From positions 806,001 to 870,000 of the forward strand of contig NZ_CP109017.1 in NCBI RefSeq assembly GCF_036226765.1: DNA of 64,000 nucleotides, given 5' to 3'. This document shows positions 27,652-58,502 of this stretch, one piece after another. Source of the DNA: Streptomyces sp. NBC_00670. GTDB taxonomy: Bacteria > Actinomycetota > Actinomycetes > Streptomycetales > Streptomycetaceae. The notes under the pieces are model-generated. The model saw nothing but the letters and a program-made list of their open reading frames with translations, made no database searches and was not told the DNA's origin. How positions within the stretch are numbered: the stretch's first letter is position 1; each line of letters begins with the position of its first letter. The position numbers and the translations under genes were made by a program.

Positions 27652-28782
27652 ATGTACGCAGCATCGTCCTCCGTGTCCGCCCCGTCTCCGTCGCTGCGCA
27701 CCCGCCGGCCGGGAGCGGGCGGCCCCTACCTCGACCCCGCGCGCCCCCAGCCCCCCGTGCACGGGGCCGGCCGGCCCCGGCGCGTGCCCGGACTGGCCGG
27801 CGCGCCCCTCAGCGGGAGGCTCGACCTGTCCGGCCCCCAGGGTGCGCAGCTGCGCACGGCGATCGCCTCCGTGCACCGCATCTGCCCGGAGTTCACCCCG
27901 GTGCAGGTGCTGCGCCGCAGCGGCCGCTCGGTGCTGCTGGTGGGCACGACAGGGCGCAGCACGGCCGTCGCCAAGTGTTTACTGGACCATTCGCCGATGT
28001 GGTCCGAGCGGACCCGGCACGAAATAGCGGCCTACCGCGCGTTCGTCCGGCACCGCCCGCCGGTGCGGGTGCCACGGCTGATCGCGGCGGACCCGGACAA
28101 CTGCACGCTGGTGATCGAGCGGATGCCCGGTCGGGTCGCCGCGCTGCACCGGCACCCGGCGCAGGCCCCGCCACGCGCGGACGTACGGGCGGCGCTCGGC
28201 GCTATCTGCCGGCTGAACGCCTGGCGGCCGCCGGCGGGCACGTTCGACGCCCCGCTGGACTACGCGGAGCGCATCTCCCGCTTCCACGACCTCGGCCTCC
28301 TCACCGACCGGGACATGGGCGACCTGCAGAAGCTGCTGCACGGCATCGCGCACGCGGCGGGCCGCCAGGGCATGGGCCAGTTCTGCCACGGCGACGCACT
28401 GCTGTCCAACGTCCTGCTCTCCCCCGCGGGCCCGGTCCTGGTCGACTGGGAGCACGCGGGCTGGTACCTGCCGGGGTACGACCTGGCGACGCTGTGGACG
28501 GTCCTCGGGGATGCCCCGCTGGCACGGCGGCAGATCGCCCAGATCGCCCAGTCGGCCGGCCCGGCCTCGCGGGACGCGTTCCTGGTCAACCTGATGCTGG
28601 TACTGACCCGGGAGATCCGCACGTACGAGACGGCCGTCCAGCGCTCGATGCACGACAGCTCCCCGACGACACCCCCGGGCGCCACCCCCTCCGGTGAGGA
28701 ACAACGCCTCCTCCTCCGCCGCCTCCACGACGACTGCCAACTGACCCGCCGTGCCCTCCGCGCAGCGGTGGGCACCCGCTGA
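27652..28782 (+). CDS. APH/choline-kinase-fold phosphotransferase with a TTA codon
   Basis: A 376-residue kinase-like protein. The N-terminal 60 residues are low-complexity. Then come the nucleotide-binding lobe ([26 protein letters not shown]) and the catalytic loop HGDALLSN (His246, Asp248, Asn253), and the metal ligand Asp265 in VDWEHAGW. The family phosphorylates small hydroxylated molecules, including aminoglycosides and choline; the substrate is unknown. Codon 110 is TTA (27979-27981), which makes translation depend on the bldA tRNA in streptomycetes. ATG 27652 follows AAGGGA at a somewhat long spacing. Confidence 0.8.
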
Positions 28783-43707: not shown

Positions 43708-44925
43708 TCAGGCCCGTGTCACCACGAGGCTGACGTTGTGCCCGCCGAAGCCGAAGGAGTTGGCCAGGGCCGCCGCCGGGCGGTCCACGCGGTTCTCCCC
43801 CGCGACGACGTCCAGGTGGATCCTGGGGTCCACCGTCCGCAGGTTGCGGGTCGCCGGGACGACCCCGTGGTGGACGGCGAGCAGGGCGGACATGGCGCCG
43901 AAGGCCCCGGAGGCGCCGAGCATGTGCCCGGTCATGGACTTCGTCGCCGTGACCGTCGGGTGGTCGCCGACCGCCTTGGCGATCGCGTCGGCCTCCGCCA
44001 GGTCACCGCCCTCCGTCGAGGTGGCGTGCGCGTGCACGTGCTCGACGTCGCCGGGCGCCAGCTCCGCGTCCCGCAGCGCCGCGCGGATGGCCTGCACCTG
44101 GCCCTCCGCGTCGGAGGCGGAGATGTGGTGGGCGCTGGAGTTGACGGCGGCCCCGGCCAGGGCGCCGTAGACGCGGGCGCCCCGGGCGCGCGCGAGGTCC
44201 GCGCGCTCCAGGACCATGACGCTCGCGCCCTCCGCCATCACGAAGCCGGTGCGGTCCGCGTCGAAGGGCCGGGACACGGCGGCCGGGTCGCCGTCGTCCC
44301 GGGAGAGCGCCTTCATCTGGGCGAACGCTCCCACGATGAACGGGTGCACCGAGGCCTCGGTGCCGCCCGCGACCACCACGTCGGCGCGGCCGAGCCGGAT
44401 CAGGTCCAGGCCCAGGGCGAGGGCCTCCGCGCCGGAGGCGCAGGCGCTGACCGGCGCCCGCGCCCCGGCCCGCGCGCCCAGGTCGAGGCTGACCCAGGCG
44501 GCGGGACCGTTCGGCATCAGCATGGGCACGGCGTGCGGGGACAGCCTGCGCATGCCGGAGTTCTCGTACAGCTCGTTCTGGCCGAGCGTGCTGAGGACGC
44601 CGCCGATGCCGGTGCCGACGACCACGGCGAGCCGTTCGGGCTCGACCTCGGGCCGCCCGGCATCCTCCATGGCCTGCCGGGCGGCGGCCACGGCGAGCTG
44701 CTCCCCGCGGTCCAGCTTGCGCGCCTGCACCCGGCCCAGGACGTCGACCGGGTCGGCGGTGACCGTCCCGGCGATCCGTACGGGCAGGTCCTCGGGCCAG
44801 TCCCCGGGCAGGGCGCGCACGCCGGAGCGCTGGTCGAGCAGCGCCTGCCAGGAGTCGGCCGCGGTCGCGCCCAGGGGGGTGAGCGCGCCGAGACCGGTGA
44901 TCACGACGCCGGGGTCCCGGCTCAT
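43708..44925 (-). CDS. Beta-ketoacyl-ACP synthase (FabF type, intact triad)
   Basis: A 405-residue KAS II-like thiolase-fold enzyme for decarboxylative chain extension. The triad is complete: Cys162 in SACASGAEAL, His300 in HAHATSTEGG and His334 in KSMTGHMLG, with the C-terminal NSFGFGGHN. The ATG overlaps the stop of the preceding ketosynthase-like gene (ATGA), so the two are made stoichiometrically and could form a heterodimer as in type II systems. It is the last gene of the operon. No ketoreductase or dehydratase accompanies it, so those functions would come from fatty acid synthase. Confidence 0.92.
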   Translation of the reverse strand: MSRDPGVVITGLGALTPLGATAADSWQALLDQRSGVRALPGDWPEDLPVRIAGTVTADPVDVLGRVQARKLDRGEQLAVAAARQAMEDAGRPEVEPERLAVVVGTGIGGVLSTLGQNELYENSGMRRLSPHAVPMLMPNGPAAWVSLDLGARAGARAPVSACASGAEALALGLDLIRLGRADVVVAGGTEASVHPFIVGAFAQMKALSRDDGDPAAVSRPFDADRTGFVMAEGASVMVLERADLARARGARVYGALAGAAVNSSAHHISASDAEGQVQAIRAALRDAELAPGDVEHVHAHATSTEGGDLAEADAIAKAVGDHPTVTATKSMTGHMLGASGAFGAMSALLAVHHGVVPATRNLRTVDPRIHLDVVAGENRVDRPAAALANSFGFGGHNVSLVVTRA

Positions 44926-46223
44926 CCGCCGTTCTCCTTCGTGTGCTCCGCGGACCGGTCGGACCGTGCGCCGCCCTTGAAGAGCAGGGCGACGTTGTGG
45001 CCGCCGAAGCCGGCCGAGTTCTTGACGGCGGCGTTCTGCTCGTCGCCCAGTTTGAGCGGCGAGCCGTGCACCACGTCGAGCTCGACACCGTCGTCGAGGC
45101 GGCGGAAGTTGCGGGTCGGCGGCACCAGCCCGTGGTGCAGGCTGAGGATGGTGGCGATGGACTCGATGGCGCCGGCCGCTCCCAGGCTGTGCCCGGTCAT
45201 GGACTTCAGGGCGGTGAGCGCCGGGAGCCGGCCGCTCTCGCCGAAGACCGCCCGGACCGCCTTGGCCTCGGCCGCGTCGCCGGGGATCGTGGCCGTGCCG
45301 TTGGCGTTGAAGAAGGCCACCTCCTCGGGGGAGACGCCGCCCTCCTTCAGCGCGGCCCGTACGGCGAGGGCGCTGCCGGCGCCCTCCGGGTCCGGCTGCA
45401 CCATGTGGTAGGCGTCGGAGGTGATGCCGACCCCGGCCAGCTCGGCGTAGATCCGGGCGCCGCGCTCGCGGGCGTGCCGCTCGGACTCCAGGACGAGGAC
45501 GCCCGAACCCTCGCCGAGGACCATGCCGTCGCGGTCCGCGTCGAAGGGGCGGGGCGCGGAGCCGGGGTCGTCCACCCGCGCGGACAGTGCCCGCATGGCC
45601 GAGAACGAGGCGAGGACCAGCGGGTGCAGCGGGGCCTCCGTGCCGCCCGCCACGACGACGTCGGCGTCGCCGCGGCGGATCAGCTCGGCGGCCGTGGCCA
45701 GCGCCTGGGTGCCCGACGAGCAGGCGTTGACGCTGGCGTGCACCCCGACGCGGGCGTTGACCAGCAGGGCCACGGCCGCGGCGGAGCCGTTGCCCATGGA
45801 CATCGGCACGGTCATCGGCGGCACCCGCCGCCAGCCGCGGTCCTTGAGCGCCTCCCAGCCGTTGATGATGGCGTTCATGTCGCCCAGCGCGGCCGAGACG
45901 GCGACGGCCACCCGGTGCGGGGAGAGGGTGGCGTCGTCGAGCCCGGCGTCGCTCCATGCCTCGGCCGCGGCGGTGACCGCGAGCTGTGCGGAGCGGCTGA
46001 AGCGGCGGCGCTGCTGGTGGTCGAGCGCGGCGCCGGGCTCGACCTTGACGCGGCCGCCGAGGACGGGCGGCATCTCCTCGGTCCACGGCTCGTCGTCGAG
46101 CACGCGGACGCCGCTGTCGCCGCGCAGCAGCGCGTCCCATGTGGCGGCCACGTCACCGCCGAGCGGAGTGGTCGCGCCGAGGCCGGTGACGACGACCTTG
46201 GCCTGCTCCTGGGAAGTGCTCAT
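44922..46223 (-). CDS. Ketosynthase-like protein with His-to-Asn substitution
   Basis: A 433-residue FabF homologue paired with the intact ketosynthase. The nucleophile Cys168 (NACSSGTQAL) and the second histidine (His345 in KSMTGHSLG) are present. The first catalytic His of the NAHGTST motif is Asn308 (NANGTAT, codon AAC). It therefore is not a classic chain-length factor, which loses the Cys, yet it lacks part of the decarboxylation site. It may acylate without elongating, or tune chain length in the heterodimer. ATGA overlaps join it to genes on both sides. Confidence 0.88.
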   Translation of the reverse strand: MSTSQEQAKVVVTGLGATTPLGGDVAATWDALLRGDSGVRVLDDEPWTEEMPPVLGGRVKVEPGAALDHQQRRRFSRSAQLAVTAAAEAWSDAGLDDATLSPHRVAVAVSAALGDMNAIINGWEALKDRGWRRVPPMTVPMSMGNGSAAAVALLVNARVGVHASVNACSSGTQALATAAELIRRGDADVVVAGGTEAPLHPLVLASFSAMRALSARVDDPGSAPRPFDADRDGMVLGEGSGVLVLESERHARERGARIYAELAGVGITSDAYHMVQPDPEGAGSALAVRAALKEGGVSPEEVAFFNANGTATIPGDAAEAKAVRAVFGESGRLPALTALKSMTGHSLGAAGAIESIATILSLHHGLVPPTRNFRRLDDGVELDVVHGSPLKLGDEQNAAVKNSAGFGGHNVALLFKGGARSDRSAEHTKENGG

Positions 46224-46684
46224 CGGGTGCGTGCCTCCTGTCCGAGCCGGGCGGCGAGCTTGCCGGAGTCCTTCTTGACCGAGTTGACGAGCACCTTGCG
46301 CAGCAGGGTCTTCGGCATGATGCCGAAGTAGTCCCCGGGCTGGACATCGAACGTCCAGTGCACGTCGGTGCCGCCGTCCGCGTTGGCGGTGTACGCGTAG
46401 GTGCCCTGGTAGCTCACCGGTCCGCTCAGCGTGTGGAACGTCGACAGGCGGCCCGGCTCGAACTCGTCGATCTCGACGGTGAACTCCATGCGCTTGCCGA
46501 TGAGCTGGAAAACGATGTCGTACCGGCAGCCGGGCCGCGGCTCGCCGCCCCGGAGGGTGACCTCGACGACGGCCGCCTGCCACACCGGGTCCTGCTCGGG
46601 GTCCGAGATGCGCGCGAACGCCTCCTGCGGGGGGACGGGCACGCTGAAGGTGTACTCGGCCCGGACCGTCTCATCCTTGGTCAT
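46220..46684 (-). CDS. SRPBCC-fold (polyketide cyclase/lipid-transport-like) protein
   Basis: A 154-residue START-like protein: AEYTFSVPVPPQEAFARISDPEQDPVWQ, LRGGEPRPGCRYDI, IGKRMEFTVEIDEFEPGRLSTFHT and VHWTFDVQPGDYFGIMPKTLLRKVLVNSVKKD. The fold binds hydrophobic ligands; members include polyketide aromatases/cyclases and CoxG-like proteins. It overlaps the NRPS stop by 14 bp and the next ketosynthase by 4 bp, so it acts with them, perhaps shaping or presenting the acyl chain. Catalysis is not proven by any motif. Confidence 0.82.
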   Translation of the reverse strand: MTKDETVRAEYTFSVPVPPQEAFARISDPEQDPVWQAAVVEVTLRGGEPRPGCRYDIVFQLIGKRMEFTVEIDEFEPGRLSTFHTLSGPVSYQGTYAYTANADGGTDVHWTFDVQPGDYFGIMPKTLLRKVLVNSVKKDSGKLAARLGQEARTR

Positions 46685-49600
46685 CGTGGGTGTCTCCCTC
46701 TCCGTGGCCGGCGGCCGGGTGCGTGTGCAGGTGGGGGCCGACGGCCAGGGCGGCCTGCTCGGCGTGCGGCGGGTACATCACCGAGTTGTGGTCGCCGGGG
46801 ACGTCGATGACGTCCAGGGACCCCTCGATCAGTGACTGCCAGCCGAGCGCGGGCCCGTAGTCGGTGGTCTCGTCGACGGCGCGCAGCAGCACCAGGTCGA
46901 CGTCGGCGGGCTCCGGCAGATAGGTCTGCAGGGCGATGCCGTTGGCCAGGTAGGCCTCGAAGTAGCGCAGGATCTGCGCCCGGTCGGCGTCCTGGGCGAG
47001 GACGCCGAGGTCGGCGGCCTCCTTGAGGATGTGGTCGAACGCGGCGTCGCCGCCGAGTTCGCGCAGGAGCTCGGCCGGGATGTCGAGCGTCTTGCCGTAG
47101 GGCACCGCGAGGTCCCGGGCGAACCACGACAGGATCGTCGCGTCGTCGGAGGACTCCGGGATGTTCTCCTCGATGGGCGCACGGCTGTCGATGCCGAAGA
47201 GGAGGTCGGTCTCCTCCCCCGCCGCGCGCAGCTGGACGGCGACCTCGTAGGCGATGACGCCGCCGAAACACCAGCCGCCCACCGAGTAGGGGCCGGCCGG
47301 CTGCACGTCCTTGATGTACTCCAGGTAGCGGGTGGCCATGGCCTCGACGCTGACCTCGGCCTCGCCCTCGCTCTCGATGCCGGGCGCCTCGATGGCGAGG
47401 ACGGGCCGGCCCTCGGGCAGATGGCGGGTGAGTTCGACGTAGCAGAAGACGGTGCCGCCGAAGGGGTGGAACAGGAACACCGGCCGCTGGTCCGGGTGGG
47501 CGGGGTCGCCCTCCCGCAGGGTGACCACCGGGACGCGCTCGCTGTCCTGGCCGCCGCGGCGGACGATGGCGGCAAGTTCCGCGACGGTGCCCTGGCGGAG
47601 CATGACGGAGATCGGCACCTCGACGTCCCACTCCTCGCGGATGGCCGCGCTGAGCCGGACGGCGAGCAGGGAGTGGCCGCCCACGTCGAAGAAGTTGTCG
47701 TGGATGCCGACCTGGGACAGGCCGAGGATCTCCGACCACATTCGCGCCAGGGTGATCTCCGTGGCGTCGCGCGGCTTGGCGAATCCGGCGTCGGAGGTGA
47801 CGACGGGCTCGGGCAGCCGGTTGCGGTCGATCTTCTTGTTGGCGGTCAGCGGCAGTTCGTCGAGGACCATGACGACGCCGGGCACCATGTACGGCGGGAG
47901 GGAGACGGCCGCCGCCGACTTGACGTCCGCCTGCTTGAGTTCGGCGCCGGGCTCGGCGACCAGGTAGGCCACGAGGCGGTCCTCGCGGACGACGACCACG
48001 GCCGTGGCGACCCCGTCGACCGCTTCGAGGACGGTCTCGACCTCGGAGAGCTCGATGCGGTAGCCGCGCAGCTTGACCTGGTTGTCCAGCCTGCCGTGGT
48101 GCAGCAGCCGGCCCTCGCTGGTGAAGCGGGCCCGGTCGCCGGTGCGGTAGAGCCGGTCCCCGGGGGCGGCGGGGAGTCCGGTGACGAACCGCTCCGCCGT
48201 CAGCTCCTCGCGGTCCCAGTAGCCGAGCGCGAGGCCGTCGCCGCCGATCCACAGCTCGCCGGGGAAGCCCGGTTCCACCTGCCGGCCCTGCGGGTCGAGG
48301 GTGTAGAGCCGGGTGTTGGCCAGCGGTGTGCCGATGTCGATGCCCCGGGCGGGGTCGACGCGGCCGGAGGTGGACCAGATGGTCGTCTCGGTGGGCCCGT
48401 AGACGTTGCGCAGGCTCGCCACCCGCGAGCCCAGGAACTCCGCCAGTTCCAGGGGGAGTTCCTCGCCGCCGCAGAGCACGTTGAGCCGCTCGGAGCCCTG
48501 CCAGCCGGCGTCCCGGAGCATGCGCCAGGAGGTGGGCGTGGCCTGCATCCAGGTGGCGCCGGACTCCTCGATCCGGACGGCGAGCGCGGCGCCGTCGGCC
48601 GCGGTGGTGCTGTCGCAGACGATCACCCGGCCGCCGGTGAGGAGCGGCAGGTACAGCTCCAGGCCGGCGATGTCGAAGGAGACCGTGGTGACGGCGAGAA
48701 GGCTGTCGGCGGCGGTGAAGCCGGTGTCCTCGCCCATCGAGAGGAGCAGGTTGGTCAGGGCGTGGTGCGGGATCGCCACGCCCTTGGGCCGGCCGGTGGA
48801 GCCGGAGGTGTAGAGGACGTAGGCGAGGTCGCCCGCCCCGACCGCGGCGCGCTCGCCGCCGGGGGCGGCGGCCGGCAGTTCGTCGAGGTCGAGCACGGGC
48901 AGCCCGGGCAGGTGGCTCGCGGCCAGTGCGCTCCGGCTGAGCAGCAGCCGGGCGCGGGAGTCCTCGGCCATGTAGGCCAGCCGCTCGGCGGGGAGGTTCG
49001 GGTCCAGTGGCACATAGGCGGCCCCGGCCTCCAGGACGCCCAGCAGGGCGGCCACGAGCGGCGCCCCGCGGTCGACCATCACCGCGACCCGGTCACCGGT
49101 GACGACCCCGGCGGCCCGCAGCGCCGCCGCGATCGTCTCGGCCTCGTGCAGCAGCCGGCCGTAACTCCACTGCTCCTCCCCGGCGGCCCCGGCGACCAGT
49201 GCGATCGCGTCGGGGGTGCGGGTGGCCTGTTCCCGGAAGAGGTGCGGCAGCCCGGCCTCGGGGACGGCGCGGTCGGGGCCGGTGCCCCAGGCGGCGATCC
49301 GGGCCCGCTGTCCCTCGTCGCCCCGGGGCAGGCTGCCCAGCGGCTCGTCGGGGCGGGTGACCAGCGTCTCCACGGTGGTGACGAAGGAGGCGGCCAGTTC
49401 GCGGGCCGTCTCGGCGGTGAAGACGTCGGTGTTGAAGCGCAGGACGCCCGCGTAGGCGCCGGCGCGCTCCGCGCCCATCTCGATCCAGAGGTCGGTCTGG
49501 CCCTCCTGCTGCGGCAGCGGGTACGGCCGCAGGGTGGCGCCGGCCAGCTCCAGCTCGGTGCCCTCGCCGGGCTCCAGCAGGAAGAAGTCGTCCATGTCGT

Positions 49601-50666
49601 TCAGGAACGGCAGCCGGTCCCAGGCGAAACCGGCCTGGTACAGGGGCGTGCGGCTGGGGTCGCGCGGCGGCGCCAGCTCCCGGACCAGCCAGGGGAAGGG
49701 CAGTTCCTGCGCCCGGGTGGCCCGCAGCACCCGCTCGCGGGCGGAGGCGAGGAGCTGACGGTAGGTCGACTCCTCGTCCACCTCGCCGCGGACGACGACG
49801 GTGTTGACGAAGTTGCCGAGCGCGTCGCGGAACTGCCGCTGCACCCGGCCGGAGGTGGGCGTGCCGACCATGACGTCCGCCTGGCCGCTGAGCCGGCTGA
49901 GCAGCACCAGGTAGGCGGCGAGCAGCACGGTGTACGGCGTGGTGGCGGACTCGCGCGCCAGTCGCCGTACCGCCTCGGTGGTGTCGGCGCTCAGGCCGAA
50001 CGGCACCGAGGAGCCGTCGTAGGACGGGGCGGGCGGCCGGGGCCGGTCGCCGTACAGGTCGAGGGCGGGGGGCGCGTCGGCGAGCCGTTCGGCCTCGCCG
50101 GCGAGCAGGGTGGCGGCCCGCTCGCCGGTGAGGAAGGTGCGCTGCTGCTCGGCGTAGGCCGCGAAGGCGCCGCCGTCCAGGGTGAACCGGTTCTCGGTGC
50201 CCTCCAGCCGGCTGCGCACCTCGGACAGCAGGAGCGCCAGCGACCAGAAGTCGATCGCGATGTGGTGCATCACGACGGTGAACACCCAGGTGCGCTCGGC
50301 GGTCCGGTAGAGGTGGACGCGCCACAGCGGCGGGCGGGCCAGGTCGAACGGCTCGCGGCTGTCGGTGCGGATGCGGCGGCGCAGTACGTCCGGGTCGGTG
50401 CCGCGCACGTCGGCGTGCCGGATGTCGGGGCGGACGGTGTCGGACACCCACTGCTCGGGTCCCTCGGGGCCGCCGCGGAAGGCGATCCGGAGGGCGTCGT
50501 GCTCGCGGGTCAGGTCCTCGACGACGTCCAGGACGCGGGGGCCGAGTTCGGGGTCGGCGGTGACCTCGGCCGCGAAGGTGATGTGGTAGGCCGCGCACCC
50601 GGGGTCGGTCTCGTGGATGAACCAGAGCCCGGCCTGCTGGTGGTTGGCGGGTATCGGCGCGCTCAT
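46671..50666 (-). CDS. Single-module NRPS: condensation-adenylation-carrier-thioesterase
   Basis: A 1331-residue module. Condensation spans 1-440 (active site MHHIAIDFWS, His134-His135, Asp139). Adenylation spans about 475-960 (LYTSGSTGRPKG at 619). The carrier has Ser999 in GGHSLL and the thioesterase covers 1060-1310. Pocket residues Asp665, Ile666, Leu669, Gln708, Leu731, Gly733, Val755, Ile763 and Trp764 read DILQLGVIW, one change from the glycine code DILQLGLIW. The thioesterase nucleophile is Cys1133 (GWCFGG, codon TGT) instead of Ser; His1293 (GDHNS) is its partner. ATG 50666 overlaps the ACP stop as TGATG. It likely joins an ACP-borne acyl group to the amino acid. Confidence 0.93.
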   Translation of the reverse strand: MSAPIPANHQQAGLWFIHETDPGCAAYHITFAAEVTADPELGPRVLDVVEDLTREHDALRIAFRGGPEGPEQWVSDTVRPDIRHADVRGTDPDVLRRRIRTDSREPFDLARPPLWRVHLYRTAERTWVFTVVMHHIAIDFWSLALLLSEVRSRLEGTENRFTLDGGAFAAYAEQQRTFLTGERAATLLAGEAERLADAPPALDLYGDRPRPPAPSYDGSSVPFGLSADTTEAVRRLARESATTPYTVLLAAYLVLLSRLSGQADVMVGTPTSGRVQRQFRDALGNFVNTVVVRGEVDEESTYRQLLASARERVLRATRAQELPFPWLVRELAPPRDPSRTPLYQAGFAWDRLPFLNDMDDFFLLEPGEGTELELAGATLRPYPLPQQEGQTDLWIEMGAERAGAYAGVLRFNTDVFTAETARELAASFVTTVETLVTRPDEPLGSLPRGDEGQRARIAAWGTGPDRAVPEAGLPHLFREQATRTPDAIALVAGAAGEEQWSYGRLLHEAETIAAALRAAGVVTGDRVAVMVDRGAPLVAALLGVLEAGAAYVPLDPNLPAERLAYMAEDSRARLLLSRSALAASHLPGLPVLDLDELPAAAPGGERAAVGAGDLAYVLYTSGSTGRPKGVAIPHHALTNLLLSMGEDTGFTAADSLLAVTTVSFDIAGLELYLPLLTGGRVIVCDSTTAADGAALAVRIEESGATWMQATPTSWRMLRDAGWQGSERLNVLCGGEELPLELAEFLGSRVASLRNVYGPTETTIWSTSGRVDPARGIDIGTPLANTRLYTLDPQGRQVEPGFPGELWIGGDGLALGYWDREELTAERFVTGLPAAPGDRLYRTGDRARFTSEGRLLHHGRLDNQVKLRGYRIELSEVETVLEAVDGVATAVVVVREDRLVAYLVAEPGAELKQADVKSAAAVSLPPYMVPGVVMVLDELPLTANKKIDRNRLPEPVVTSDAGFAKPRDATEITLARMWSEILGLSQVGIHDNFFDVGGHSLLAVRLSAAIREEWDVEVPISVMLRQGTVAELAAIVRRGGQDSERVPVVTLREGDPAHPDQRPVFLFHPFGGTVFCYVELTRHLPEGRPVLAIEAPGIESEGEAEVSVEAMATRYLEYIKDVQPAGPYSVGGWCFGGVIAYEVAVQLRAAGEETDLLFGIDSRAPIEENIPESSDDATILSWFARDLAVPYGKTLDIPAELLRELGGDAAFDHILKEAADLGVLAQDADRAQILRYFEAYLANGIALQTYLPEPADVDLVLLRAVDETTDYGPALGWQSLIEGSLDVIDVPGDHNSVMYPPHAEQAALAVGPHLHTHPAAGHGEGDTHDDQG

Positions 50667-50977
50667 CACTGGCCGTCCGCGGCGGCCCGGGCCGGTACGG
50701 CGCCGTCGGCCGGCGTGCCGTCGTTCATCAGCGCCCAGAGCGCCTCGGCGAGGGAGTCGACCGTGGGGTGGTCCCAGAGCAGGTCCACCGGCGGGTCGGT
50801 GAGGCCGCAGGAGTCTTCTATCTCCATGCCGACGGTGAGGGCCGCCATGGAGTCCAGGCCGTAGGAGGTGAAGGGCTGGTCGGTGGCGAGCTCGGCGGGG
50901 GCGACGCCGGCTTCGGCGGACACCGCCTTGATCAGTACGTTGCGGACGTCGTCCAGCGTCATGTCCGTGGTGCTCAT
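50666..50977 (-). CDS. Stand-alone acyl carrier protein
   Basis: A 103-residue carrier protein with the phosphopantetheine site Ser43 in YGLDSMAAL, an acidic helical core (DDVRNVLIKAV, DHPTVDSLAEALWALM) and a disordered Ala-rich tail. It would carry the acyl chain built or oxidised by the neighbouring ketosynthases and acyl-CoA dehydrogenase, and donate it to the NRPS condensation domain. It starts 46 bp after the dehydrogenase stop and its stop overlaps the NRPS start. Confidence 0.9.
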   Translation of the reverse strand: MSTTDMTLDDVRNVLIKAVSAEAGVAPAELATDQPFTSYGLDSMAALTVGMEIEDSCGLTDPPVDLLWDHPTVDSLAEALWALMNDGTPADGAVPARAAADGQ

Positions 50978-51023
50978 CTCGGTTCGGAACCTTTCCGGTG
51001 GTCCGGGTGGGGGTGAGTGACGG

Positions 51024-52862
51024 TCAGGCGGCGGTGGGCGGGGAGGCCGGCGTGTCGGTGCCGCCCTCCTCGGGGGCGCCGGGTGCGGCCATGCGCACGG
51101 TGAGCAGGGAGAAGTATTCGCCTGCCGTGCGCTGGCGGTGCATCTCGGCGGCGAGGGTCCGGGCGGCGGCCGGGTCGAGGTCGCCGGTGCCGTACTGGTG
51201 GACCTGCTCGCGGGCCAGGGCGGCCTCCAGCCAGACGCCGTCGGCGAAGAACGCGCCGAGGTGGTCGCGGTTGAACAGCCAGATGCCGAGCGCGGCGACC
51301 TTGGCGTGCAGGGCGCTCAGCTCCTCGGCCACCCGGATCAGGGCGGGCGAGGTGGTCTTGGCGGACGTCGTCGCCGTGGCGTCCGCCGGGGTGCGGCGGG
51401 CCTCCTGGACCCGGGCGAGCAGCGCGTCCAGTTCGTCCCACAGGCCTTCGGCGCGGGCGCGCAGGGTGGCCAGCCGTTCGGCGTCGCAGCCGGCGGTGGG
51501 CGTGAGCGCGGCGAGGCGGTCGATCAGGGCGGGCAGGCTGGCGAAGGTGGCGTCCCGGCCGCGGCCGAAGACGCTGACCCGGTGCGGCTCGAAGACGGGC
51601 AGTTCGGCGCGCAGGTCGTACAGCGGGCGCCAGTCCTCGTCCCGGTCGTGGCCGTGTGCCTTGGCCAGGGCGGGCAGTTGGAGGGCGATGCTGTCCATGC
51701 AGACGGGCTCGCTGCCGTCGAAGACGGAGACGACGGCGCTGTCGCGGTACATCTTCTGGAACGTGCCGACGTGCTCGTGGGCGCGCATGAAGTAGCGGGC
51801 ACCCAGGGTGCGGGCGAGTGCCTTGGCGCTGAAGTCGACCAGGCGGGCGACCTGCACCTTGGCGAGGTTGCCCCAGATGCTGAACTGCTCGGTGTACAGG
51901 TGCAGTCCGCGCATCGCGACGAGGCTCTCGCACTCGGCCACCAGCAGGCTGAGGTAGGCGCTCGCGAGGGACTCGTTGACGTAGGGGATCTCGCTGGCCG
52001 GTCCGTCGTACAGGACGCGCTCGGAGAGGAAGTCGCCCACCGTGCGCAGCATGGTGTCGCCGGTGCCCAGGGAGAGACCGGTGCAGAAGGTGCGGGTGAT
52101 GAGCAGTCCGCGCAGGGCGAGTTCGAGGCCCTCGCCCTCGGCGCCGAGCCGGGCGAAGCTGTCCACCCGGGCCTCGTCGAAGGCGACGCCGCTGATGTCG
52201 CAGCCGCGCAGGCCGTAGGTGGGGACGCGCGGGACGCCGGTCACCTCGCCGGAGAGCACGGTGGAGCGGTCGACGAGGAACATGGACTGCTGTCGCTTGG
52301 CCGGGGTGGTCTCGTCGCCGGTGGTGCCGAGCAGCACGACGTGGGTCGAGGTGCGGCCGCGGTTGATGGGCCACTTCTCACCGGACAGGACGTACTGGCC
52401 GCCGTCGGGGGTGGCGCGGAAGGTGTTGGCCGCGAGGTCGGCGCCGTGTTCCGGCTCGGAGTAGGCGAGGCACGGGATGACTCCGCCCTGGAGCACGGTG
52501 GCCGCGTGCTTGGCCTGCTGCTCGGGGGTGCCGCCGATCCAGGCGAGCATCATCCACACCTGGGTGCTCTCGCTGACGGCGACGTTCATGTCCCGGCGGG
52601 CGATGGCACGGGTCAGCATGAGGATGTCCTCGGCGGCCCGCAAGTTACCGCCGAGTTGCTCCGGGACGAAAAAGCGGTTGAATCCGAACCTACGTAGCCG
52701 ATCGATTCCCGCGGCCGGCAGTTCATTGCGCTCGTCGAGTTCCAGAGCTGAGGAAAAATTGAGGGAGTTGGACTCCGTGCCGGGGTCCCCGAACCATTTC
52801 TCGAGCGACTCCGCCAATGCGAGGGACGTGACGGTGGGTGACTCGGCTTCTAACTGGGTCAT
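51024..52862 (-). CDS. Large acyl-CoA/acyl-ACP dehydrogenase; first gene of the operon, TTA at codon 4
   Basis: A 612-residue flavoprotein of the acyl-CoA dehydrogenase superfamily, longer than the usual 380 residues because of a C-terminal helical extension. Recognisable are PEQLGGNLRAAEDILMLTRAIARRDMNVAV, CLAYSEPEHGADLAANTFRA, SGEKWPINRG and VPTYGLRGCDISGVAFDEARV. It probably desaturates the acyl chain on CoA or on the adjacent ACP. Codon 4 is TTA (52851-52853), so translation needs the bldA leucyl-tRNA. Ribosome-binding signals at ATG 52862 are weak. The upstream frame is open to 53162 but AT-rich and promoter-like. Confidence 0.85.
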   Translation of the reverse strand: MTQLEAESPTVTSLALAESLEKWFGDPGTESNSLNFSSALELDERNELPAAGIDRLRRFGFNRFFVPEQLGGNLRAAEDILMLTRAIARRDMNVAVSESTQVWMMLAWIGGTPEQQAKHAATVLQGGVIPCLAYSEPEHGADLAANTFRATPDGGQYVLSGEKWPINRGRTSTHVVLLGTTGDETTPAKRQQSMFLVDRSTVLSGEVTGVPRVPTYGLRGCDISGVAFDEARVDSFARLGAEGEGLELALRGLLITRTFCTGLSLGTGDTMLRTVGDFLSERVLYDGPASEIPYVNESLASAYLSLLVAECESLVAMRGLHLYTEQFSIWGNLAKVQVARLVDFSAKALARTLGARYFMRAHEHVGTFQKMYRDSAVVSVFDGSEPVCMDSIALQLPALAKAHGHDRDEDWRPLYDLRAELPVFEPHRVSVFGRGRDATFASLPALIDRLAALTPTAGCDAERLATLRARAEGLWDELDALLARVQEARRTPADATATTSAKTTSPALIRVAEELSALHAKVAALGIWLFNRDHLGAFFADGVWLEAALAREQVHQYGTGDLDPAAARTLAAEMHRQRTAGEYFSLLTVRMAAPGAPEEGGTDTPASPPTAA

Positions 52863-53358
52863 AACGCGTCTGATTCCGTTTCGCGCAAGAGGTGTGGGAT
52901 TCATCTGACGAAAGGGCAGGGCGGATCGGCCGGCCGACCTGTTGACGGCGACGGGCGGCCGGGAACATCGAAACAGCGCACGCCGAAAAGCGGTGCACAC
53001 CGGGCGCAACGCATGACGACGAGAAGTGTGGGAGGCCGAACGAGGGCATCTACACCAGGGCTGACCAGCGCAAACGGGCGCGCGGAACCCCGGCGTCAGC
53101 ACGATGCCTGACGACAGCCTGCAATTGATGGTGTGGTGTTGATTCTTCCCCCGTGACCCCACGACGGGTCACAAAGACTCCTCTGTGCTATTCCCCGTCA
53201 CTTCTCTCGAAGCTACCCCCGCTGCCTCAGGTACGGACTCTTTGGTCGACGGCCCGTGACTCGAAATCGAGCCTACACAATGCACTTCCGTAAGCCACTG
53301 TGCGTGACGTTCCGGCCAACGGGGCGAGAGCGTAGCAGGGCCGCTATTCCGAAATCAT

Positions 53359-53372
53359 GTGACCCAGGTCAC
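53359..53372. promoter_or_regulatory. Candidate Crp-type operator (GTGACC-CA-GGTCAC)
   Basis: A 14-base sequence with perfect 6-bp arms fits the streptomycete Crp pattern GTG-N6-GNCAC. It lies about 500 bp upstream of the dehydrogenase gene and 400 bp upstream of the MarR gene. Crp is known to regulate antibiotic clusters in S. coelicolor; binding here is inferred. Confidence 0.5.
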
Positions 53373-53728
53373 GTTCCGGTTTACCGAGACAGTTCGGCGG
53401 GGCAATACCGCGCGCCCCGGATAGCCGACCGACCTGGCAGGGCGCGGGTGAACCAGAGATTCCACCGCGCGCCGGACCGCCCGGGAGCCCGGCAGATTTT
53501 GCCATTTCATGGGTGGACGGCCGCCGGCTTTGCAACAGCGGTGTGAACAAGCCGGGCCGCCGGCCCCCGCCGGTGCGGCGGCCGCGGGCGGGGTATCGGG
53601 CGCGCGCGAGCGTCGCCGGGCCGGGAAACCGCGCAGGTCCCCGGCGTCCGCGGGCCCCGACGCGGGCGGCGGACCGGGCGCCCGGGACCCCGCGGCCGGC
53701 GGGACTGGATCTCTCCCGGGAAACATTG

Positions 53729-53743
53729 CTATCTTGATGGTAG
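53729..53743. promoter_or_regulatory. Candidate MarR operator upstream of marR
   Basis: CTATC-TTGAT-GGTAG is an imperfect inverted repeat 30 bases upstream of the regulator ATG. Its reverse complement shares the core CCATCA with the sequence over the exporter promoter (54512-54517), which supports a common binding protein. Confidence 0.4.
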
Positions 53744-53773
53744 AAGTTTCGTATGATCGAGAGGAGCGGGTTC

Positions 53774-54271
53774 ATGGCGCGCACCGGCAACGCCGAACGG
53801 CCCGAGGCGCGGCAGTCCCTGCGGGAGGACTTCCTCATCGCGGAGCGCCCCGGCTACCTGCTGCACAAGGCGGGTCTGGTGCTGGTCGAGGACGCCGAGA
53901 AGGCGCTGGCCGACGTCGGCATGCGCATCCGCTACTTCTTCGTGCTGGCCGCCCTGGCCGGCGGACCCGAGCTCTCCCAGCAGGACCTGAGCCGGCTGCT
54001 CAACCTGGACCCGACCACCGTCGTGACCGTGATCGACGAGATGGAGCGCAACAAGCACGTCGAGCGGCGGCGCAATCCCGCCGACCGCAGGCGCTACAAC
54101 CTGATCCTCACCGACTCCGGCCGCGAGGCGCTCGCGACCGCCGACCGGGTGGCCTCCGAGGTGGAGGCGGAGTTCTTCGGCGCGCTCGGGGACGGCGAGC
54201 GCGAGGCGCTGCGCGGCATGCTCGGCAGGCTCCTCGCGGGCCGCTGGCCGGCGTCGGTCTGTTCCGACTGA
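53774..54271 (+). CDS. MarR-family transcriptional regulator
   Basis: A 165-residue winged-helix regulator. The recognition region is LSQQDLSRLLNLDPTTVVTVIDEMERNKHVERRRNPADRRRYNLILTDSGREAL, the typical MarR HTH plus DxRxxx wing. ATG 53774 follows GAGGAG by 8 bases; ATG 53753 lies before that site and is rejected. It is divergent from the biosynthetic operon and 279 bp upstream of the MFS exporter, so it probably represses the exporter and perhaps the cluster until a phenolic or product-like ligand binds. Confidence 0.9.
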   Translation: MARTGNAERPEARQSLREDFLIAERPGYLLHKAGLVLVEDAEKALADVGMRIRYFFVLAALAGGPELSQQDLSRLLNLDPTTVVTVIDEMERNKHVERRRNPADRRRYNLILTDSGREALATADRVASEVEAEFFGALGDGEREALRGMLGRLLAGRWPASVCSD

Positions 54272-54550: not shown

Positions 54551-56164
54551 ATGTCCGCAGAACGCGCTCCGTCCCCCACGAGGTGGTGGACGCTCGGGAT
54601 CGTCGCGTTGGGCTCGTTCATGCTGATGCTCGACCTGAGCGTGGTCTCGATCGCGCTGCCGCAGATCCACGAGTCCCTGGGCAGCAGCTTCGCCGACCTG
54701 CAGTGGGTGTTCGACGCCTACGCCCTGACGCTGGCGATCTTCCTGGTGGCGGCGGGCTCGCTGGCCGACCGGATCGGCCGCAAGAAGCTCTTCCAGGTCG
54801 GCTTCGCCGTCTTCACCGTCGCCTCCCTGGCCTGCGGTCTGGCGGACGGCGCCAACGCGCTGAGCTGGTTCCGCGCGATCCAGGGTGTCGGCGCCGCCGT
54901 GATGTTCGCCGTCGGCCCGGCCATGCTCAGCCACGAGTTCCACGGCAAGGAGCGCGCGACCGCTTTCACCGCGTTCGGTGCGGCCGTGGGTCTGGCCGTG
55001 GCCACCGGTCCGCTCATCGGCGGCTCGCTGATCAACTCCCTGTCCTGGCGCTGGATCTTCTACATCAACGTGCCGGTCGGCGTGATCGCCCTGGTCATCG
55101 GCGCCCTGCGAGTGCGCGAGTCGCGCAACCCCAAGGCCCACCCCACCGACTGGGCCGGGCTCGCCACCTTCAGCGTCGCCCTGGCCGCCCTGGTGTACGC
55201 CACCATCCGCGGCCCGGTGGAGGGCTGGAAGAGCGCCACCACCCTCGGCCTCTACGCCGCCAGCGCCGTGTTCCTCGCGCTGTTCGTGTTCATCGAGAAG
55301 CGGCTGGGCGAGCGCGCCATGATCGACCTGGCGTTCTTCCGCAGCCCCACCTTCATCGGCATCTCCCTCGTCGCCATGATCGGCAACGCCGGCGCCCTGC
55401 CGTCGGTGTTCTTCGAGACCAGCTACATCGAGAACATGCTGCACGTGGACGCGTGGGGCACGGGTCTGCGCTTCCTGCCGCTGACCGGCGCGATGTTCGT
55501 GGCCGGTGCGCTCGGCGGCGGCCTCATCGGCAAGGTGCCCTTCCGCATCCTGCTGGGCGGCTCCACCCTGGTGATGGCCGTCGGCATCCTCTTCCTCAAC
55601 ATGACCGAGGCCGACTCCAAGTGGACGGTCCTCATCCCGGCGCTGGTCATCTCCGGCTTCGGCATGGGTGCCTTCAACCCGGCCCGCGCCGCCCTGGCCA
55701 TCGGGGTCACCGAGCCCGCGAAGTCGGGTGTCGCCTCCGGCATCAACGAGACCTTCCAGCAGGTCGGCATCGCGGTCGGCATCGCCGCCGTGGGCGCCTA
55801 CTTCCAGCACAGCGTGGCCGACGACTTCACCGGCTCCGCGGTGGGGCAGCAGATGGGTGACGACGCCGCCAACGAGGCCGCGCACGGCATCAGCGCCGGT
55901 GGCCTCGACGCCGTCGCGCAGGCCGCGGGCCCGCTCCGCGACAAGGTCCTCGTGGCCGGCCAGGACGCGTTCATGAACGCCTTCCACGGCGCCATGACCT
56001 TCAGCGCGATCCTCGGCTTCGTCGCCGCGGTCATCGGCTTCACCATGCTGCGCACGAAGGACCTGCACGCCAGCGCCCTCTCGACGGTCCCGCCGGACCT
56101 CGACGAGGACGGCCAGGTGCGCCCGGACGACGCCACGGACGTCGCGGTGGGCGCGCCCGCCTGA
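54551..56164 (+). CDS. DHA2-type 14-TM MFS exporter
   Basis: A 537-residue major-facilitator drug:H+ antiporter. TM1 LGIVALGSFMLMLDLSVVSIALP holds the D-x-x motif of the DHA2 group. The loop motif GSLADRIGRKKLFQ (motif A) and motif C (GAAVGLAVATGPLIGGSL) follow, then further TM helices up to AMTFSAILGFVAAVIGFTML. ATG 54551 has GGAAGG 8 bases upstream. Next to a MarR gene and a biosynthetic operon it is the likely self-resistance or product exporter. Two tandem hairpins follow it. Confidence 0.9.
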   Translation: MSAERAPSPTRWWTLGIVALGSFMLMLDLSVVSIALPQIHESLGSSFADLQWVFDAYALTLAIFLVAAGSLADRIGRKKLFQVGFAVFTVASLACGLADGANALSWFRAIQGVGAAVMFAVGPAMLSHEFHGKERATAFTAFGAAVGLAVATGPLIGGSLINSLSWRWIFYINVPVGVIALVIGALRVRESRNPKAHPTDWAGLATFSVALAALVYATIRGPVEGWKSATTLGLYAASAVFLALFVFIEKRLGERAMIDLAFFRSPTFIGISLVAMIGNAGALPSVFFETSYIENMLHVDAWGTGLRFLPLTGAMFVAGALGGGLIGKVPFRILLGGSTLVMAVGILFLNMTEADSKWTVLIPALVISGFGMGAFNPARAALAIGVTEPAKSGVASGINETFQQVGIAVGIAAVGAYFQHSVADDFTGSAVGQQMGDDAANEAAHGISAGGLDAVAQAAGPLRDKVLVAGQDAFMNAFHGAMTFSAILGFVAAVIGFTMLRTKDLHASALSTVPPDLDEDGQVRPDDATDVAVGAPA

Positions 56165-56189: not shown

Positions 56190-56229
56190 ACCGTCCCGGT
56201 GGTCACATCCCCCGCGCCACCGGGACGGT
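56190..56229. terminator. Hairpin 1 after the exporter gene
   Basis: A perfect 13-bp stem (56190-56202 with 56217-56229) and a 14-base loop lie 25 bases after the exporter stop. Confidence 0.7.
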
Positions 56230-56242
56230 TCTCCACCGCTCC

Positions 56243-56271
56243 ACACCCCCCTGGGACCTCCAGGGGGGTGT
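56243..56271. terminator. Hairpin 2 after the exporter gene
   Basis: A perfect 12-bp stem (ACACCCCCCTGG at 56243 with CCAGGGGGGTGT at 56260) and a 5-base loop follow the first hairpin directly, closing the cluster side. The remaining 170 bases to dhaK hold the dha promoter region and no gene. Confidence 0.7.
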
Positions 56272-56441
56272 CGGCGTTCCCGGCCCGCCGGGCAGGGACG
56301 GGTGCCGGCCCATCCGGCCCGCCGGGCACCTCCCCCACCGTCGTCACAGGTGACCTTCGCCGTTCCGGGGCAGATACTGCCGATAGGAGCGGCCCAGCAC
56401 GCAGGCCGGAGCGAGGCCTGCCCGGCTCACCGGAGGTACCC

Positions 56442-57434
56442 ATGAAGATGTTGATCAACGTCGCGGAAACGGTGGTCGCGGACGCGCTGCGGGGGATGGC
56501 CGCCGCCCACCCCGAGCTCACCGTCGACGTGGAGAACCGGGTGATCGTACGGCGGGACGCGCCGGTTGCCGGAAAGGTCGCCCTCGTCTCCGGCGGCGGC
56601 TCGGGGCACGAGCCGCTGCACGGCGGCTTCGTCGGCCCGGGCATGCTCTCGGCGGCCTGCCCCGGCGAGATCTTCACCTCCCCCGTCCCGGACCAGATGG
56701 TGCGGGCCGCGGCCGCCGTGGACAGCGGCGCGGGCGTCCTCTTCATCGTCAAGAACTACACGGGCGACGTCCTCAACTTCGACATGGCGGCCGAGCTCGC
56801 CGAGGACGAGGGCATCCAGGTGGCCAAGGTCCTCGTCAACGACGACGTCGCCGTGACCGACAGTCTCTACACCGCGGGCCGCCGGGGCACCGGCGCGACC
56901 CTGTTCGTGGAGAAGATCGCGGGCGCGGCGGCGGACGAGGGCCAGCCGCTGGAGCGGGTCGAGGCGCTCGCCCGGCAGGTCAACGACAACGCGCGCAGCT
57001 TCGGCGTCGCCCTGTCCGCCTGCACCACCCCCGCCAAGGGCACCCCCACCTTCGACCTGCCCGCCGGGGAGCTGGAGCTGGGCATCGGCATCCACGGCGA
57101 GCCGGGGCGCGAGCGGCGCGGGATGATGACCTCGCGGGAGATCGCGGACTTCGCGGTGCACGCGATCCTGGAGGACATGGAGCCGCGCAACCCGGTCCTG
57201 GTGCTCGTCAACGGCATGGGGGCGACGCCGCTCCTCGAGCTGTACGGCTTCCACGCGGAGGTGCAGCGGGTGCTCACCGAGCGGGGCGTGGCCGTGGCCC
57301 GCACGCTGGTGGGCAACTACGTCACCTCCCTGGACATGGCGGGCGCGTCCGTCACCCTGTGCCAGATCGACGAGGAGCTGCTGCGGCTGTGGGACGCGCC
57401 GGTGAGCACGCCGGGGCTGCGCTGGGGCAGGTAG
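56442..57434 (+). CDS. dhaK: Dihydroxyacetone kinase subunit DhaK
   Basis: The 330-residue substrate-binding subunit of PEP-dependent dihydroxyacetone kinase. It binds dihydroxyacetone covalently through His218 in GIGIHGEPG, the same number as in E. coli DhaK. GGGSGHEPLHGGFVGPGMLSAA, FIVKNYTGDVLNFDMA and LVNGMGATPLLELY are all family-typical. ATG 56442 follows CGGAGG; the longer open frame is rejected. It is the first gene of dhaKLM, feeding dihydroxyacetone into glycolysis as the phosphate. Confidence 0.95.
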   Translation: MKMLINVAETVVADALRGMAAAHPELTVDVENRVIVRRDAPVAGKVALVSGGGSGHEPLHGGFVGPGMLSAACPGEIFTSPVPDQMVRAAAAVDSGAGVLFIVKNYTGDVLNFDMAAELAEDEGIQVAKVLVNDDVAVTDSLYTAGRRGTGATLFVEKIAGAAADEGQPLERVEALARQVNDNARSFGVALSACTTPAKGTPTFDLPAGELELGIGIHGEPGRERRGMMTSREIADFAVHAILEDMEPRNPVLVLVNGMGATPLLELYGFHAEVQRVLTERGVAVARTLVGNYVTSLDMAGASVTLCQIDEELLRLWDAPVSTPGLRWGR

Positions 57435-57481
57435 CCCCCACGTCTTGCCGCCCGCAACATCCGTACCACGCAAGGAGATCC

Positions 57482-58081
57482 ATGCTCGACGCCGACTTCT
57501 TCCGCCGCTGGATGGCGGCGACCGCCGCGTCCGTCGACCGTGAGGCCGAGCGGCTCACCGCCCTCGACTCGCCGATCGGCGACGCCGACCACGGCAGCAA
57601 TCTGCAACGCGGGTTCCGCGCCGTGGTGACCGTACTCGACAAGGAGGCGCCGGACACGCCCGGGGCCGTGCTCACGCTGGCCGGACGGCAGCTGATCTCC
57701 ACGGTCGGCGGCGCGTCCGGGCCGCTGTACGGGACGCTGCTGCGGCGCACCGGCAAGGCGCTCGGCGACGCCGCCGAGGTCTCCGAGGCGCAGCTCGCCG
57801 AGGCGCTGGGCACCGGCGTGGACGCGGTGCGGCAGCTGGGCGGGGCGGCGCCGGGTGACAAGACCATGATCGACGCGTTGGTGCCGGCGGTCGGGGCGCT
57901 CGGCGAGTCGTTCGCCGCGGCCGGGGCGGCGGCGGAGGAGGGTGCCGTCGCCACGACACCGTTGCGGGCCCGCAAGGGGAGGGCCAGCTATCTCGGCGAG
58001 CGGAGCGTCGGGCACCAGGACCCGGGCGCGACCTCGGCCGCGCTGCTGATCGCGGCACTTCAGGAGGCGCGCGGTGAGTGA
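57482..58081 (+). CDS. dhaL: Dihydroxyacetone kinase ADP-binding subunit DhaL
   Basis: The 199-residue subunit that holds ADP/ATP as a cofactor and transfers the phosphate to dihydroxyacetone. The magnesium-binding aspartates are Asp29, Asp34 and Asp36 in DSPIGDADHG. STVGGASGPLYGTLLR, PGDKTMIDAL and the C-terminal GRASYLGERSVGHQDPGATSAALL match the family. It lies 47 bp after dhaK and overlaps dhaM by 8 bp. Confidence 0.95.
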   Translation: MLDADFFRRWMAATAASVDREAERLTALDSPIGDADHGSNLQRGFRAVVTVLDKEAPDTPGAVLTLAGRQLISTVGGASGPLYGTLLRRTGKALGDAAEVSEAQLAEALGTGVDAVRQLGGAAPGDKTMIDALVPAVGALGESFAAAGAAAEEGAVATTPLRARKGRASYLGERSVGHQDPGATSAALLIAALQEARGE

Positions 58082-58502
58082 GAGCGGTGGAGGTACGGAG
58101 CGGCGGCTGGTCGGGGTGGTGCTGGTGTCGCACAGCGCGGCGGTGGCGGCGTCGGTGGCGGAGCTGGCCAAGGGTCTCGCGGGCGGCGGTCCGACGGCGC
58201 CCGTAGCCCCTGCGGGCGGCACGGCGGACGGCGGCCTCGGCACCAGCGCGGAGCTGATCTCCGCGGCGGCGGCGTCGGTGGACCGCGGCGCGGGCGTCGC
58301 GATCCTGATGGACCTCGGCAGCGCGGTCCTCACGGTCAAGGCGCTGCTCGCGGAGGGCGACGAACTCCCCCCGGACACCCGCCTGGTCGACGCCCCCTTC
58401 GTGGAGGGCGCGGTCGCGGCGGTGGTGACGGCGTCGGCCGGGGCGGACGTGGCCGCGGTGGAGTCCGCGGCGGCGGAGGCGTATTCCTACCGGAAGGAGT
58501 GA
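58074..58502 (+). CDS. dhaM: PTS-dependent dihydroxyacetone kinase phosphoryl donor DhaM (single EIIA domain)
   Basis: A 142-residue EIIA-Man-like subunit. The phosphorylated histidine is His20 in VLVSHSAAVAASVAEL, and GVAILMDLGSAVLTVKALL is typical. It receives phosphate from HPr and rephosphorylates the ADP on DhaL. It consists of the EIIA domain alone, without the HPr and EI-like domains fused in E. coli DhaM, so it relies on the general PTS. The GTG start overlaps dhaL and follows AGGAGG inside it. Confidence 0.92.
   Translation: MSESGGGTERRLVGVVLVSHSAAVAASVAELAKGLAGGGPTAPVAPAGGTADGGLGTSAELISAAAASVDRGAGVAILMDLGSAVLTVKALLAEGDELPPDTRLVDAPFVEGAVAAVVTASAGADVAAVESAAAEAYSYRKE

Follow-up and report, generated by a model that had tools for sequence, protein, structure and literature searches.

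The question raised by this locus is whether one UUA codon near the start of a biosynthetic operon in Streptomyces sp. NBC_00670 places that operon under the control of the bldA tRNA and hence of development. The window, that is, the whole stretch of 64,000 nucleotides that we analyzed, contains a TTA (Leu) codon at 52851-52853 on the minus strand, and direct reading agreed with the first-pass annotation that this is codon 4 of the operon's first gene. The gene (51024-52862, minus strand; referred to as ACAD) encodes a 612-aa protein of the acyl-CoA dehydrogenase family, with matches to PF02770, PF00441 and PF02771 above the cut-offs. The comparisons described below make it fairly probable, in our judgement, that the TTA is a checkpoint for the translation of a biosynthetic operon, of the type already known for bldA.

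Downstream of ACAD, on the same strand, lie genes for an acyl carrier protein-like protein (ACP, 103 aa, 50666-50977; PF00550), an NRPS of C-A-T-TE organization (1331 aa, 46671-50666; PF00668, PF00501, PF00550, PF00975), a Polyketide_cyc2 family protein (154 aa, 46220-46684; PF10604), and two beta-ketoacyl synthases, KS1 (433 aa, 44922-46223) and KS2 (405 aa, 43708-44925), both matching PF00109 and PF02801. From strand, spacing and conserved order we infer that ACAD, ACP, NRPS, cyclase, KS1 and KS2 form one transcript. Two divergent genes on the plus strand, both without TTA, encode a MarR-family regulator (53753-54271; PF12802, PF01047) and an MFS exporter of the DHA2 type (54551-56164; PF07690, TIGR00711). 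Downstream of the exporter is a dihydroxyacetone kinase set (genes with Dak1, Dak2 and EIIA-man domains, 56199-58502, plus strand), which we take to be of the PTS-dependent type.

The closest solved sequence to the NRPS was PDB 4zxh (NRPS ABBFA_003403, 1124 bits), presumably an Acinetobacter baumannii protein, and ACAD is 38% identical to A. baumannii records across residues 17-545. A plasmid search, which gave only relatives below 60% identity, was used solely for this Acinetobacter lead. Membership in a cispentacin/coronafacate-like KS-CYF (AmcF-AmcG) type of cluster was rejected because the KS2 frame scored 190 bits against the NCBIfam AmcF cut-off of 325. No paper on this operon was found in the open-access literature on bldA/TTA in connection with biosynthetic genes or acyl-CoA dehydrogenases, on cispentacin/acinetin clusters or on the strain NRRL F-6676.

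ACAD homologues were found in 11 further loci, seven from a scan of named genomes and four more from 392 genomes of the genus, which together with the window gives 12 loci. Three others (L058, L061 and L064) were left out as duplicates of L040, L043 and L045, respectively, and further genus- and family-level searches for related loci returned no additional ones. The nearest relative, L039, is from Streptomyces sp. NRRL F-6676, and its ACAD protein is 98% identical to that of the window. ACAD, ACP, NRPS, cyclase and KS1 are present in 11 of the 12 loci, the exception being L043, where the contig ends inside the NRPS gene. KS2 was found at 77-98% identity in seven loci besides the window (L039, L040, L041, L042, L065, L066 and L067); the second KS of L044 is 49% identical, and KS1 alone was found in L045 and L068.

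The 3' part of the operon differs in other ways among the loci. KS1 and KS2 overlap by 4 nt in the window (44922-44925) and in L039, with no intervening gene, and L040 carries between them an ACT plus formyl-transferase (PurU-like) gene (L040:15976-16887). Similar-size open reading frames occupy this place in L041, L042, L065, L066 and L067, L040's being the only one that was typed. A gene of the F420_oxidored family follows KS2 in the L040/G325, G040 and G084 loci (L173:7010-7705, L171:19326-19925 and L169:19298-19897), with a TTA at codon 84 in L040/G325 and G040 and none in G084.

The meaning of the TTA depends on where ACAD begins. Read on the minus strand from 52862, the first codons are ATG ACC CAG TTA GAA GCC, and a weak Shine-Dalgarno-like GGAA (52874-52877, minus strand), also found in L039, stands 11 nt before the ATG. 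In the comparison of the window with L039, the 13 codons that precede the ATG contained two changes, both at second positions, and the five changes in the 40 codons before it were distributed as one, three and one over first, second and third positions. Within codons 1-60 all four changes, those in codons 5 and 11 among them, were at third positions, and codons 61-612 held 6, 6 and 27 changes at positions 1, 2 and 3. Since the changes are at second positions before the ATG and at third positions only after it, the comparison, few as the changes are, favours ATG 52862, and this is the likely start of translation. An alternative in-frame ATG 14 codons upstream would leave the TTA inside the gene.

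A start that would leave the TTA out, in an unread leader, is the in-frame TTG at codon 16 (52817-52815). Residue 4 sits in an unconserved N-terminal segment, and it is near residue 16 that the conserved part of the protein begins, which would suit such a start, as would the weakness and distance of the GGAA before the ATG. Misplaced starts do occur in this context; one made SCO6717 a false TTA gene, according to the excerpted text of PMC2000904. Against this, the third-position changes in codons 1-60 begin upstream of TTG16, with second-position changes just before the ATG, no Shine-Dalgarno-like sequence was seen before TTG16 by direct reading, and even L040, the shortest case, still has an ATG seven codons before the conserved block. 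We regard a start at TTG16 as highly improbable. A true start downstream of codon 4, the objection which the first-pass annotation had anticipated, was therefore not borne out, as the changes relative to L039 fit ATG 52862 and TTG16 lacks a Shine-Dalgarno-like sequence.

TTA is rare in this genome. In the window, a purpose-written codon-usage gene caller placed it in 2 of 51 predicted genes, in agreement with the two genes that had been noticed by eye. The other one is a gene of the APH family (27757-28782, plus strand), where the TTA is codon 75, or codon 103 with an earlier start; among the orthogroups whose TTA is conserved, the excerpted part of PMC10327506 names one of aminoglycoside phosphotransferases, with the codon at nt 328-330. 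The genome-wide count that the first-pass annotation had proposed was run on a sample of 60 stretches of 20 kb (1.2 of 7.58 Mb, same chromosome), and thus gives a sample figure: 18 of 1009 predicted genes, with approximate start sites, had a TTA (18 of 339,861 codons), at least one of the 18 (L132:19553-19999) being an open reading frame cut by the end of a stretch. This rate scales to about 114 TTA genes in the whole genome, and the same excerpt gives a range of 51-505 and an average of 177 across 213 species. At this rate a single TTA gene in a stretch such as this one is not improbable; what goes beyond chance is the recurrence of TTA in the related operons.

The genome also has the expected partners of such a codon. 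Typing was applied to 12 of 67 RF00005 matches, mostly long or low-scoring; 11 of the 12 gave a tRNA, and one of these was tRNA-Leu with the anticodon taa (G000:C1:3006708-3006791). An AdpA-like open reading frame of 431 aa has a DJ-1/PfpI domain at 26-192, an AraC-type HTH at 254-332 and a TTA at codon 225 between the two domains, which is where the TTA of adpA is described in the available portion of PMC4255298.

It could still be that the TTA in ACAD is incidental: the less GC-rich 5' ends of genes would accumulate rare A/T-ending codons, and the bldA tRNA would be sufficient at any time when this operon is transcribed, so that no regulation results. The unconserved segment around residue 4 is compatible with this, and 13 of the 18 TTA codons in the genome sample lie within the first 60 codons of their gene. 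In addition, most TTA codons are poorly conserved across the 213 species, as far as the excerpt of PMC10327506 states. We examined this reading against the related operons.

With the window and L039, which share codon 4, left out, one or more TTA codons were present in the operon gene set of 8 of 10 relatives, eight different sites in all. In ACAD these are codon 4 in L044 (S. griseomycini), codon 19 in L045, codon 26 in L040 and codon 60 in L065, which also has one at ACP codon 30. L066 has TTA at NRPS codon 78 and KS2 codon 52, L041 and L042 have it at KS2 codon 52, and L043 has it at NRPS codon 59. No TTA was seen in L067, where all six operon genes were read, or in ACAD to KS1 of L068, where KS2 was not found. 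Codon numbers count from the start chosen for each locus in ACAD and KS2 and follow the window numbering in ACP and NRPS. KS2 was read only partly in L041 and L042, and the KS2 and NRPS frames are broken in the L041 assembly; an apparent TTA at NRPS codon 565 of L041 was dropped because of the broken frame, and KS2 codon 52 was kept because the same codon stands in an open frame in L042 and L066. We did not count TTA codons in stop-to-stop frames upstream of plausible starts (L040 ACAD -98, L065 ACAD -37, L065 MarR -1, L045 NRPS -612 and L067 MarR -126) or outside the six genes (the L065 MFS gene and, in L040 and G040, the F420_oxidored gene that follows KS2).

The background, taken from the 60 stretches of this genome and 20 from six other genomes, was 16 TTA in 81,900 codons within the first 60 and 6 in 368,751 other codons. 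The expectation is accordingly 0.114 TTA per operon and a probability of 0.108 (about 11%) of at least one, against which 8 of 10 relatives gives P = 7e-7. When L041, L042 and L066 were grouped as one, other kinship being ignored, 6 of 8 lineages had a TTA (P = 4e-5). As the background comes mostly from this genome and the relatives' genomes may be richer in TTA, the lineage test was repeated at two, three and four times the background rate, giving P = 0.0014, 0.009 and 0.03. Non-overlapping control blocks of six genes contained a TTA in 13 of 145 cases in the own genome and in 7 of 72 in other genomes, the latter figure being if anything too high because that control includes eight stretches with parts of these operons and F420_oxidored genes; for overlapping same-strand control windows, the numbers were 0 of 111 and 2 of 45.

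These results argue against an incidental TTA, since 8 of 10 relatives stand against about 10% of control blocks. Within the first 60 codons, the ratio of TTA to the sum of TTG, CTA and CTT was 7:27 in the relatives and 16:444 in the background (Fisher p = 4e-4); TTA is thus enriched over the other A/T-rich leucine codons, and AT-richness at gene starts is no explanation. The two relatives without TTA in the operon genes read are what such an account would lead one to expect, and with this taken into consideration we judge it unlikely that the TTA is incidental. The dependence of the operon on bldA proposed in the first-pass annotation was in this way supported in part: the rarity of TTA, the tRNA and AdpA-like genes and the TTA-bearing relatives speak for it, and the two relatives without TTA speak against it.

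The checkpoint, if it is one, appears to move. All TTA sites of the related operons lie within approximately the first 80 codons, and several are at leucines encoded otherwise elsewhere: leucine is found in 10 of 11, 10 of 10 and 11 of 11 other loci at ACP 30, NRPS 59 and ACAD 60, respectively, through other codons, so that these TTA codons look like separate silent gains. NRPS 78 is valine in the 10 other loci compared. The ACADs of the window and L044 both have L-E-A-E after three residues; their codons 4 do not share an alignment column, and in the ACAD tree the gene of the window groups with L039, apart from that of L044, which groups with L043 (5 of 9 inner branches are starred and several forks are weakly supported). 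Independent gains of TTA seem to have occurred at no fewer than six sites in ACAD, ACP, NRPS and KS2. It is plausible, and we propose it tentatively, that selection maintains a UUA checkpoint for the operon as a whole and not at a given codon. If true, a site of translational control would be turning over here much as binding sites do in promoters.

The first-pass annotation had regarded the whole operon as translationally coupled to the TTA gene. This part was not supported at its first junction. A gap of 46 nt (50978-51023, minus strand) lies between ACAD and ACP, and the GGAAAGG at 50996-50990 within it is probably ACP's own ribosome-binding site. All 12 loci have, 44-171 nt beyond the ACAD stop, an ACP ATG with a Shine-Dalgarno-like sequence before it; ten loci have GGAAGG or GGAAAGG as this sequence, L040 has GAGAGG and L045 has GAAAGG. 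With this gap and an ATG so preceded, the window lends no support to direct coupling of ACP to the TTA gene by overlap. It is true that ACP through KS2 overlap successively by 1-14 nt in the window, which speaks for gating through direct coupling, and in the SCO6638-SCO6637 pair the overlapping gene downstream of the UUA gene is less expressed, as reported in the excerpt of PMC2000904. Moreover, L041 and L066 have an extra in-frame ATG, without a Shine-Dalgarno-like sequence, that overlaps the ACAD stop by 4 nt. No overlapping in-frame ATG was seen in the other 10 loci, the window included, and the overlapping ATG weakens the case against coupling in L041 and L066 only. Gating of the whole operon by direct translational coupling from ACAD to ACP is, in our view, decidedly unlikely.

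Upstream of ACAD, a Crp-like palindrome, GTGACCTGGGTCAC (53359-53372, minus strand), keeps the form GTGN8CAC in all 8 of the aligned loci whose MarR gene is divergent; its likeness to a Streptomyces Crp site rests on the Crp consensus as we assume it to be. The same alignment showed a conserved CTGCTACGCTC (53328-53338, minus strand) that includes a -10-like TACGCT; in all eight loci this conserved stretch starts 33-34 nt from where the palindrome begins. Six of the 8 show the stricter GTGN6GNCAC, a form whose frequency in the genome sample is about 0.33 per kb. GTGN8CAC is found upstream also in L043, L044, L045 and L068, without the -10-like pattern. A match to what we take to be the AdpA consensus, at 53309-53318, is in the same place in 5 of the 8 divergent loci; the motif is short and degenerate, and we did not use it as evidence. 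These three elements lie approximately 450-510 nt upstream of the ACAD start, and if the Crp-like/-10 region is the promoter, the ACAD leader would exceed 400 nt. An Rfam search of 52700-53900 with E up to 1 gave no match. By eye, the ACAD leaders of L040, L041, L042, L065 and L066 contain short inverted repeats that seem to covary (GGACAG..CTGTCC or GGGCAG..CTGCCC near the start, GCGCC..GGCGC further up), the corresponding region of the window being about 52863-53110.

The favoured explanation, a bldA-type checkpoint, would operate as follows. While the UUA-reading tRNA is scarce, ribosomes would stall at ACAD codon 4 and little ACAD would be made; at a later developmental stage, with the tRNA at hand, ACAD would be produced and the pathway could run. 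Any influence on genes further downstream would require polarity or decay of the mRNA, or the loss of just the one enzyme might suffice. Polarity or decay is preferred to overlap coupling as the main route of any such effects in view of the probable ribosome-binding site of ACP itself. The explanation presupposes three things: a UUA is maintained by selection at some place among these genes, the supply of the tRNA is limiting in this case, and the product is not formed when ACAD is missing. Some UUA is read even in bldA mutants, as described for adpA in S. ghanaensis in the excerpt of PMC3814723. The uncharacterised ACAD-ACP-NRPS-KS operon would gain a regulatory handle, as a silent pathway may be activated by the recoding of one codon or by added bldA. 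The related operons, with their shifting TTA, also offer a compact case for asking whether selection keeps UUA dependence while its position drifts.

Several known systems can be compared with this one, all of them as far as the excerpted texts go. In the moenomycin cluster, structural genes, moeE5 and moeO5, are controlled by AdpA and the bldA tRNA (PMC3814723), and, as in this operon, TTA is in biosynthetic genes. There, bldA control was established by Western blot and gusA fusions, whereas here it is inferred from sequence; the moenomycin cluster has no cluster regulator, whereas the present operon adjoins a MarR gene and carries its TTA as codon 4 of its first gene. In the ram/amf (SapB) system the TTA site shifts among species (PMC4255298); that is another pathway, and here the TTA varies among enzyme and carrier genes while the regulator in the window has none. 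The epoxyketone (epn/tmc) clusters resemble these operons in that TTA is frequent across related clusters, in a regulator and in the enzyme gene tmcK (PMC8988807), but their main TTA site is a LuxR-type regulator; these clusters, too, encode an acyl-CoA dehydrogenase. For polycistronic mRNAs with a UUA, downstream polarity was suggested in SCO6638-SCO6637 and SCO0381-0401 (PMC2000904), which makes polarity on the genes downstream of ACAD possible by analogy, with the difference that SCO6638 and SCO6637 overlap and ACAD and ACP of the window do not. The Acinetobacter NRPS and ACAD are a likeness at the level of sequences, and the Streptomyces operon adds a cyclase-like protein and two ketosynthases. 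Most likely, then, the operon is a new example of a known control, ordinary bldA-type gating as in moenomycin with a codon site that shifts among species, to which the comparisons and the published precedents lend indirect support.
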